From: Amyelois transitella
Taxonomy: Eukaryota > Arthropoda > Insecta > Lepidoptera > Pyralidae
NCBI RefSeq assembly: GCF_032362555.1
Contig: NC_083533.1
Location: 811,001-875,000 of the forward strand
DNA: 64,000 bases
Direction: 5' to 3'
The position numbers were made by a program, and so were the translations under genes. This document shows positions 26,301 to 29,300 of this stretch, piece by piece; the stretch's first letter is position 1, and each line of letters begins with the position of its first letter. Below the pieces are notes generated by a model, which did no database searches, was not told where the DNA came from, and saw only the letters and a program-made list of their open reading frames with translations.

Positions 26301-29300
26301 TAATAGGACCACTCCATCTCGTTACCATGGATGTCGTAAAAGGCGACTAAGGGATAGGCTTACAAACTTGGTATTCTTTTTTAGGCGATGGGCTAGCAAC
26401 CAGTCACTATTTGAATCTCAATTCTATCTTAAAGACAAATAGCTGTACGTGGCCATTCAGTCTTTTCAAGACTGTTGGCTCTGTCTACCCCGCAAGGGAT
26501 ATAGACGTGATTATATGTATATATGTAGTAAATAAATAAATATATACAAGACAAATTACACAGCATCGAAGTAAGAGCATGACTTATTTGTTTGTAAATA
26601 CTTCAAATTAAAATTATTTTATTTGCATAATATGAGTATAATAACAAGGTGTTGAATTTATATGTATACCAGATCTTCATATTTACCCTTTCGGATGTTG
26701 CAAACATTTTTTATGTATTAGTAGACATATTAACTTATACAAAAAGATACCTACTTAGTATCACATTATAATTTTAAATCTAACTAGAATTGCTTAAACC
26801 TAGTATTGCACAATTTATATTTATCTATTTATAGGTGCTTATTTATTTATAATTGTAAATAACTATTATTTTCTAATACTTTTTTTGCAAGGTTACAACG
26901 TAAAAGTATTATAATTCTATTACATATTTACATTAAAATACTTATGAATAGAATAAAAATTGTTTTGAAGAAGAATTGACTTTATTTTTTTAATTAAAGT
27001 GAGTTAATTTACTTTCATTTTCTTAAGAATTTGGTACCTAGTTTATTGTAAATTAATACACAAAAAAGACATTATACAATTCCAAAACTGTTAGCTCCGT
27101 CCACCGCGCGAGTGGTACAGACGTGACTATATGTATATACCTATGTCTATATTTATAATACTAGCTTTGCCCGCGACTTCATCCGCGTGGAATTGTTATT
27201 TTGGGCATCATTGAAGCCCACTAGGATTAATAATTTCCCCCGTTTTTTTCACACTTTCCATTATTTCTTCGCTCCTTATAGTTGCAGCGTGATTTTATTT
27301 AGCCTAAAAACTTCCTCGATAAAGGGTCTATTCAACGAAAAATATTTTTTTAAATTAGAACCAGTTAGTTCCTGAGATTAGCGCGTTCAAACAAAAAAAA
27401 AACACACAAACTCTTCAGCTTTATAATATTAGTAAAATTATCAAACTTTTTGGAATACACAAAACATACATTAAACAATTCCAAAACTGTTAGCTCCGTC
27501 CACCGGGCGAGGTATACAGACGTGATTATATAATATAGGTATGTATCACATATAACATCTCACCGGTGAGCTGTAAAGCCTCCCTCAATTCGTTGCTGTG
27601 AGCGGTGTCCTGCTTCTCGAAGGCCAACAACAGCGCGCACTGCGGCGTGCTGGCGCTCACGTGATACACCCTGCAACAATTAATAAAATTACACCTCGTC
27701 CGCGCCTTTTATTTTGACTTTGACAGCTGTCAAAGTCAAATAAAAATATATTTTTTTAATCTTAATTTTTTTTTAGCACTTCATAAAAATAATTTTAATT
27801 AATACATTAATAAACTTGGGCCATCGTGAATGTTGAATTGGAGATATTGATATTGTTTTCTAAATTGTTTATAGCTAGGATACTGACTAGACATACTGAC
27901 GTAATCATCCGACCCACCTGTGTGTGTATCTGGTCCTCAGTTCTCCAGTACACAGATGGTGAAGCCAAACCAGATAGTTCCCACTTTAGTGCCTCAATTC
28001 CAGATTTCTTAGATCTCTGTAGGGATACAGTTCTCCCTAGTCAGGATCTAGACATACTGACGTAATGCATCCGACCCACCTGTGTGTGTATCTGGTCCTC
28101 AGTTCCCCAGTACACAGACGATGTAGCCAGGCCAGATAGTTCCCACTTTAGTGCCTCAATTCCAGATTTCTTAGATCTCTGTAGGGATATACATACATCT
28201 CCCTAGCTATATAATAATCATCAGACCAACCTGTGTGTATATCTGGTCCTCAGTTCCCCAGTGCACAGATGATGTAGCCAGTCCATATTACCCCCACTTT
28301 AGTGCCTCAATTCAAGATTTCTTAGATCTCCGCCGTGTGGTTCCCGGTACCAACAGAAAAAAGAATAGGACCACTCTTTCTCACGGATGTCGTAAAAGGC
28401 GACTAAGGGATAGGAGGCTTACAAACATGAAGTGTTGCATCCGACTCACCTGTGTGTGTATCTAGTCCTCAGTTCCCCAGTACACAGATGATGAAGCCAA
28501 ACCAGATAGTTCCCACTTTTGTGCCTCAATTCCAGATTTCTTAAGTCTCTACCGTGTGATTCCCGGCACCAACACGAAAAATAATAGGACCACTCCATCT
28601 CTATCCCATGGATTTCGTAAAAAGCGACTAAGGGATAGGCTTACAAACTTTTTTAGGCGATGGGCTAGCAACATGTGTCTATTTGAATCTCAATTCTATC
28701 ATTAAGCCAAACAGCTGAACGTGGCCATTCAGTCTTTTCAATACTGTTGGCTCTGTCTACCCCGCAAGGGATATAGACGTGACCTTGTTGCATCCGACTC
28801 ACCTGTGCGTGTACCTAGTCCTCAGTTCCCCCGTGCACAGATGATGTAGCCAGGCCATATTGCCCCCACTTTAGTGCCTCAATTCCAGATTTCTTAGGTC
28901 TCTGTAGGGATACAGTTCTCCCTAGCTATGATCTAGACATAGCAATGTTGCATCAGACCCACCTGTGCGTGTACCTAGTCCTCAGTTCCCCCGTGCACAG
29001 ATGGTGCAGCCAGGCCAGCCGGCGGCCGCTGAACGAGTCGCGGTAGAAGGCCTCGAACAGGCGCGCGGGCCGCTCCAGCTGCGCGGGCGGCGCTAGGGGC
29101 GCCATCGCGCCGCCCAGCGGCCACGCGCCCGCCTGCAGCACCTGCCGGCGGACATCGACACGTCTGTATGCCGTGCGGGGTGGACTGAGACAACCGTGTT
29201 GGAAAGGCTGATAGGCCGCGTTCAGCTGTTTGGCCGTTACATGTACAAACATACATCGTCACGTCTACATCCCGTGCGGGGTTGACAGATAGATAGAATA

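Follow-up and report, generated by a model that had tools for sequence, protein, structure and literature searches.

An array of exon 14-end copies within intron 14 of cullin-2 in Amyelois transitella, and its excess of silent differences

Why should copies of a coding sequence that lie within an intron differ from the live exon, and from each other, almost only at silent sites? The question is raised by cullin-2 in a 64,000-nucleotide stretch of Amyelois transitella DNA (NC_083533.1, positions 811,001 to 875,000; hereafter the window), in which an initial annotation, made from the letters alone, had described five tandem copies of the end of exon 14, all keeping the same peptide. We mapped the cullin-2 protein of Plodia interpunctella, the nearest protein match (87% identity), onto the window by tblastn; this placed 18 coding exons on the minus strand, from 49310 to 23218, and the array at the 14th of them (exons counted by eye), as annotated. 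The five copies, together with the live end of the exon, were recovered as six units spanning 27887-29018, with the following parts (c5 is the copy nearest to the live exon).

28963-29144, minus strand: live cullin-2 exon 14 (tblastn of Plodia cullin-2, 98% identity)
28963-29012, minus strand: live exon 14 tail from the W codon; its donor, GTGGGT, starts at 28962
28856-28906, minus strand: intron part of the unit, ahead of c5; each copy is preceded by a similar block, with an in-frame TAA in 4/5 copies
28803-28852, minus strand: copy c5, comprising 17 codons of the exon 14 tail without the last base; donor GTGAGT; 2/16 third positions differ from the live tail
28553-28787, no strand assigned: repeat-element sequence between c5 and c4, partly like 28333-28430; limits approximate, by eye
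28450-28499, minus strand: copy c4; donor GTGAGT; the upstream TAA reads AAA, giving an open frame upstream; GTT (Val) before W
28333-28430, no strand assigned: repeat-element sequence between c4 and c3; limits approximate, by eye
28231-28280, minus strand: copy c3; donor GTTGGT; GAC (Asp) before W
28080-28129, minus strand: copy c2; donor GTGGGT; His to Arg
27918-27967, minus strand: copy c1, farthest from the live exon; donor GTGGGT; 7 silent differences from the live tail; GTT (Val) before W

Each unit comprises the last ~57 nt of exon 14, a GT donor and ~100 nt of intron. The donor-like GT noted earlier on every copy is present, as CAG/GT, in all five. Donor-to-donor spacings along the array are 160, 353, 219, 151 and 162 bp; the two long ones (353 and 219 bp) are largely taken up by repeat-element sequence, which we take to be SINE-like, and a direct repeat (28374-28414 / 28599-28639) links the two stretches. 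Adjacent direct copies that contain exon plus intron sequence are as expected of a tandem duplication across the exon/intron border. The unit's own intron was also compared with the exon sequence upstream of W; about 10/48 bases match before CTGG (hand count), which we took as chance. A plus-strand gene over the array was rejected, the variable bases falling at second codon positions of the long plus-strand frames (by hand).

A search of the 327-Mb genome (33 contigs, the window lying on contig C29 of 4.93 Mb) returned at least six matches to the exon 14 unit, all at the cullin-2 array and none on other contigs, which ruled out a dispersed repeat family. An assembly error, by which haplotypes would have been collapsed or misjoined, is very improbable in view of this confinement and of a second, differently decayed array of similar size within cullin-2, described below. 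A second cullin-2 gene was considered as the source of the copies and rejected: among 23 genome matches, those away from the locus are 32-54% identical, the best-scoring of them being a single open frame on contig C7 with 32% identity, and we read these sequences as probable other cullins.

Over the 17 codons shared by the six units, 9/16 third positions are variable, all silently, against 1/34 of the others (Fisher p=3.9e-5), the sole replacing change being His to Arg in c2. The farthest copy, c1, differs from the live tail at 7/16 third positions and at 0/34 others, exactly as annotated, and the silent pattern is indeed statistically odd. Preservation of the peptide, as claimed with the one His-to-Arg change, holds within the 17 codons from W; it does not extend to the codon before W, which is GCC (Ala) in the live exon, c5 and c2, GTT (Val) in c4 and c1, and GAC (Asp) in c3. 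Ala stands at this position in 41/41 scored proteins among the first 46 relatives (5/46 did not fit the search motif and were left unscored), 36 of the 41 carrying what we take to be moth or butterfly names. With this codon added, variable positions number 10/17 for third and 2/36 for other positions (p=4.8e-5).

The annotation had proposed that these changes be set against those of the intronic unit. The whole tail is as variable as the units' intron (10/50 versus 9/47, p=1; for the intron, 4/51 columns bordering the repeat element were left out; with them the count is 13/51). Third positions are more variable than the units' intron (9/16 versus 9/47, p=0.009) and the remaining tail positions less so (1/34, p=0.04).

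Coding use of the copies, as alternative exon ends or cassette exons, was considered. The GT is kept at all five copy donors, those of c4 and c5 (GTGAGT) seem by eye stronger than the live donor, and c1, c2 and c5 are each preceded by an acceptor-like CCCTACAG. Set against this, the exon frame read past the live donor gives THR-W-V-stop (in-frame TGA), and an in-frame TAA stands 7 codons before W in 4/5 copies, so that the acceptor, donor and open frame joining neighbours that mark tandem alternative exons are not found together. Val, Asp and Arg also occur in the copies. The intron columns directly upstream of W vary at 7, 2 and 4 of 17 in phases 1, 2 and 3 (four border columns included), with no third-position excess. 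The stops and the replaced residues contradict the annotation's idea that the copies served as exon ends under selection, and such a function is scarcely credible; the copies are probably without coding use.

Alternatively, the tails could have diverged under coding constraint, a diverged haplotype being among the sources proposed in the annotation. Live exon 14 ends from several distinct haplotypes, whether deep alleles, introgressed sequence or a second gene since lost, would then have been gathered into the array recently. This would account for the ratio of silent to replacing variable sites, 9 to 1 (p=4e-5), and for third-position differences between copies that reach 8/16 at most beside 0-11/51 columns in the shared intron (border columns included). 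It would equally account for base composition: GC3 of the tail is 13/16 in the live exon, 11/16 in c5, 7/16 in c4 and 8/16 in c1-c3, and the copies are AT-richer at third positions, as first remarked. The further suggestion that they may be fossils of former codon usage would fit these values. A gathering of haplotypes would, in our judgement, need silent divergence of between-species size within one locus; the genome search found no second cullin-2, Val, Asp and Arg are present in the copies, and the exon 8 array shows nothing similar. Such an origin does not seem likely. It is likewise unlikely that the copies diverged as expressed coding sequence, the intron being an archive in which real states of the live exon end, whether past or allelic, were collected by repeated exchange from diverged haplotypes.

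Evidence for exchange between the units comes from their mosaic composition. In a four-gamete test on 14 informative sites, 32/91 pairs were incompatible, suggesting that units were shuffled or that mutation recurred at shared sites. Over 51 bp of intron c1 matches c2 throughout, yet their tails disagree at 4 sites and the codon before W differs as well; c5 equals the live tail from its fifth codon on, its donor differing, and TCTG after the donor is common to the live unit and c3. Sharing of variants with the live copy in this manner is as seen in concerted evolution, repeated mutation being another possible cause. Because c5 matches the live tail from the fifth codon on, the latter appears to have taken part in exchange.

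We note that, upstream of W (29012), GC3 within exon 14 is 43/44, and that it is 14/17 in the codons starting with W (p=0.06); this may indicate that a copy once overwrote the live tail itself.

If the live exon kept rewriting the copies by gene conversion, these would record its past silent states, as the annotation had suggested. The mosaic variants, c5 and the shared TCTG all fit such transfer. In order to follow its outcome, conversion with a protected live exon was simulated in 30 settings (5 rates, 3 donor weights and 2 tract lengths), the samples of one setting coming from one chain and not being independent. In 25 settings samples with 9-11 variable sites were obtained (1 to 53 each), none of which had one replacing site or fewer; the remaining 5/30 gave no sample within that range. 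In the means of the 30 settings, the ratio of replacing to silent variable sites was ~1.6 to 3.4, and in the Wright-Fisher population model described below it was 1.7 to 2.1. The exchange part of the suggestion has support in the 32/91 conflicts; the silent-only differences were not produced in simulation, and continued rewriting from the live exon is quite improbable. Serial duplication, simulated in four settings (1063, 764, 50 and 5 runs with 9-11 variable sites), likewise never gave one replacing site or fewer.

Selection could also act indirectly, copies with a replacing change being purged since recombination could put that change into the live exon; the live tail, as the end unit of the array, would be open to replacement by exchange. 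We ran a Wright-Fisher population model in which haplotypes with a damaged live exon are lost. At N*C of 1, 10, 50 and 200, the probability of one replacing site or fewer was 0 in 56, 154, 180 and 83 samples, respectively (9-11 variable sites), and an earlier short run at three exchange rates agreed. Indirect selection is accordingly extremely unlikely.

A neutral tree model (stem and five copies; 18 codons including the Ala codon) was scored for two replacing sites or fewer among 11-13 variable ones. At a normal live silent rate the frequency was 0/1486 (rate hand-set from the intron) and 0.0007-0.0015 at three other settings; raising the live silent rate threefold gave 0-0.009, fivefold 0.003-0.03 and tenfold 0.015-0.09. 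None of the models tested, be it conversion, serial duplication, indirect selection or the neutral tree, makes the silent skew likely. We considered gBGC as an accelerator of silent change in the live exon. The direction fits, 6/7 array-to-live changes being AT to GC (by hand); the published strength is low, gBGC being described as weak in Leptidea butterflies in the part of the source available (B 0.21-0.79; PMC8175052), and a tenfold live silent rate is not expected because of these values.

The reading that we favour, with slightly better than even confidence, is an ordinary tandem duplication across the exon/intron border, partly shuffled, in which the skew combines silent evolution of the live exon with luck and is incompletely explained. 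The array would have originated across the exon 14/intron 14 border, joined at a short CTGG match, after which unequal exchange or conversion would have rearranged its units, with the live tail involved at least once. As to the skew, the live-versus-array differences, all of them silent, may have arisen in the live exon, which can hardly change except silently. What is left would be a somewhat raised number of silent changes in a small set of mutations, attributable to small-number luck in a picked-out small sample. With the live-versus-array differences left out, the copies show 4 silent and 3 replacing changes (p 0.09-0.13); counting three live-shared variants as new mutations makes this 7 and 3 (p 0.005-0.011). 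This split was made by hand and assumes fast change in the live exon.

In favour of border duplication, the array and its junction lie at a single locus with no second cullin-2 found, the four-gamete test shows conflicts, the tail varies like intron, the Ala codon varies, stops precede 4/5 copies and follow the live donor, and the exon 8 array decays in an ordinary way. Against it, so few replacing sites are seldom obtained when arrays are simulated as neutral beside a constrained live exon, and third positions exceed the intron in variability (p=0.009), with the others falling below (p=0.04). Cullin-2 has two such arrays, and we infer that the one at exon 14 is a by-product of tandem duplication in the intron. 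Exon copying is indeed recurrent in this gene, with two further cases.

40308-40834, minus strand: second array, made up of the exon 8 tail (end of the live exon at 40781) and three intronic 48-nt copies, which end at 40623, 40466 and 40308
30351-30404 and 30566-30599, plus strand: part of exon 7, copied into intron 13 in inverted orientation and broken in two by an insert

The exon 8 array has a period of 157-158, its unit consisting of exon 8 tail, donor and intron. Over 16 shared codons it has 7 silent and 8 replacing variable sites, with 7/16 third positions variable against 8/32 of the others (p=0.21). One copy has an in-frame TAG and one a donor changed to AT, and a two-codon gap is present. 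The exon 7 copy differs from its source at 3 silent and 2 replacing sites over 87 bases. Silent-only divergence is thus not the rule in cullin-2. Silent to replacing counts are 10:2 for exon 14 and 10:10 for the exon 8 and exon 7 copies together (p=0.075), a difference that is not firm.

Both arrays (27887-29018 and 40308-40834) contain ~54-57 nt of exon in units of ~151-162 bp. This likeness may be chance or a mark of their mode of origin; it gives a modest clue to the way in which such duplications begin. In 200 kb adjoining the window we counted 5 arrays with a period of at least 90 (range 101-368), regardless of contact with exons. The inverted exon 7 copy includes the acceptor AG and lies ~11 kb from its source exon.

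Intronic minisatellites and tandem arrays are a well-known kind of sequence. The cullin-2 array resembles them in its ~155-bp head-to-tail intronic units with mosaic variants, and differs in having live coding sequence at one end. Dscam exons, which carry both splice sites, offer another comparison. As in the portion of the Dscam work available (PMC3236188), coding sequence has been copied in tandem; there, the duplicated exons are mutually exclusive, whereas cullin-2 copies consist of an exon tail with a donor only. A further comparison is the RdRp gene of potato, for which the accessible part of the report describes intron gain by tandem genomic duplication across an exon/intron border (PMC4974935). 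In both genes the duplication crosses the border and multiplies splice signals; the potato event gave a new spliced intron, whereas in cullin-2 the copies lie inside an intron, the donor side is multiplied and any use is putative. The tandem AGGT dual-specific splice sites of polyubiquitin, as far as that source could be consulted (PMC10809524), are matched by the AG/GT on each array unit; those sites bound coding ubiquitin monomers, whereas cullin-2 units are mostly intron with stops. In the literature searched, we recognised no description of intronic exon-tail copies with silent-only differences.

If the silent-only pattern reflects real constraint, exon copies in introns would document the codons that a gene used in the past, and a single genome would suffice to read which way its codon usage has changed. 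If not, the array is a caution: next to a constrained exon, a handful of silent differences can mimic preserved code.

Other features of the locus were noted. A search for structured RNA in 20-45 kb of the window gave a single tRNA match, at 44005-44076. At the exon 8/9 junction (40781), ~7 residues present in 6/6 other moth proteins compared are missing in Plodia and, by splice reading, in this species. Finally, intron 10 of cullin-2 contains a long plus-strand open frame (34400-37336, 978 aa), which by eye resembles the reverse transcriptase of a non-LTR retrotransposon.
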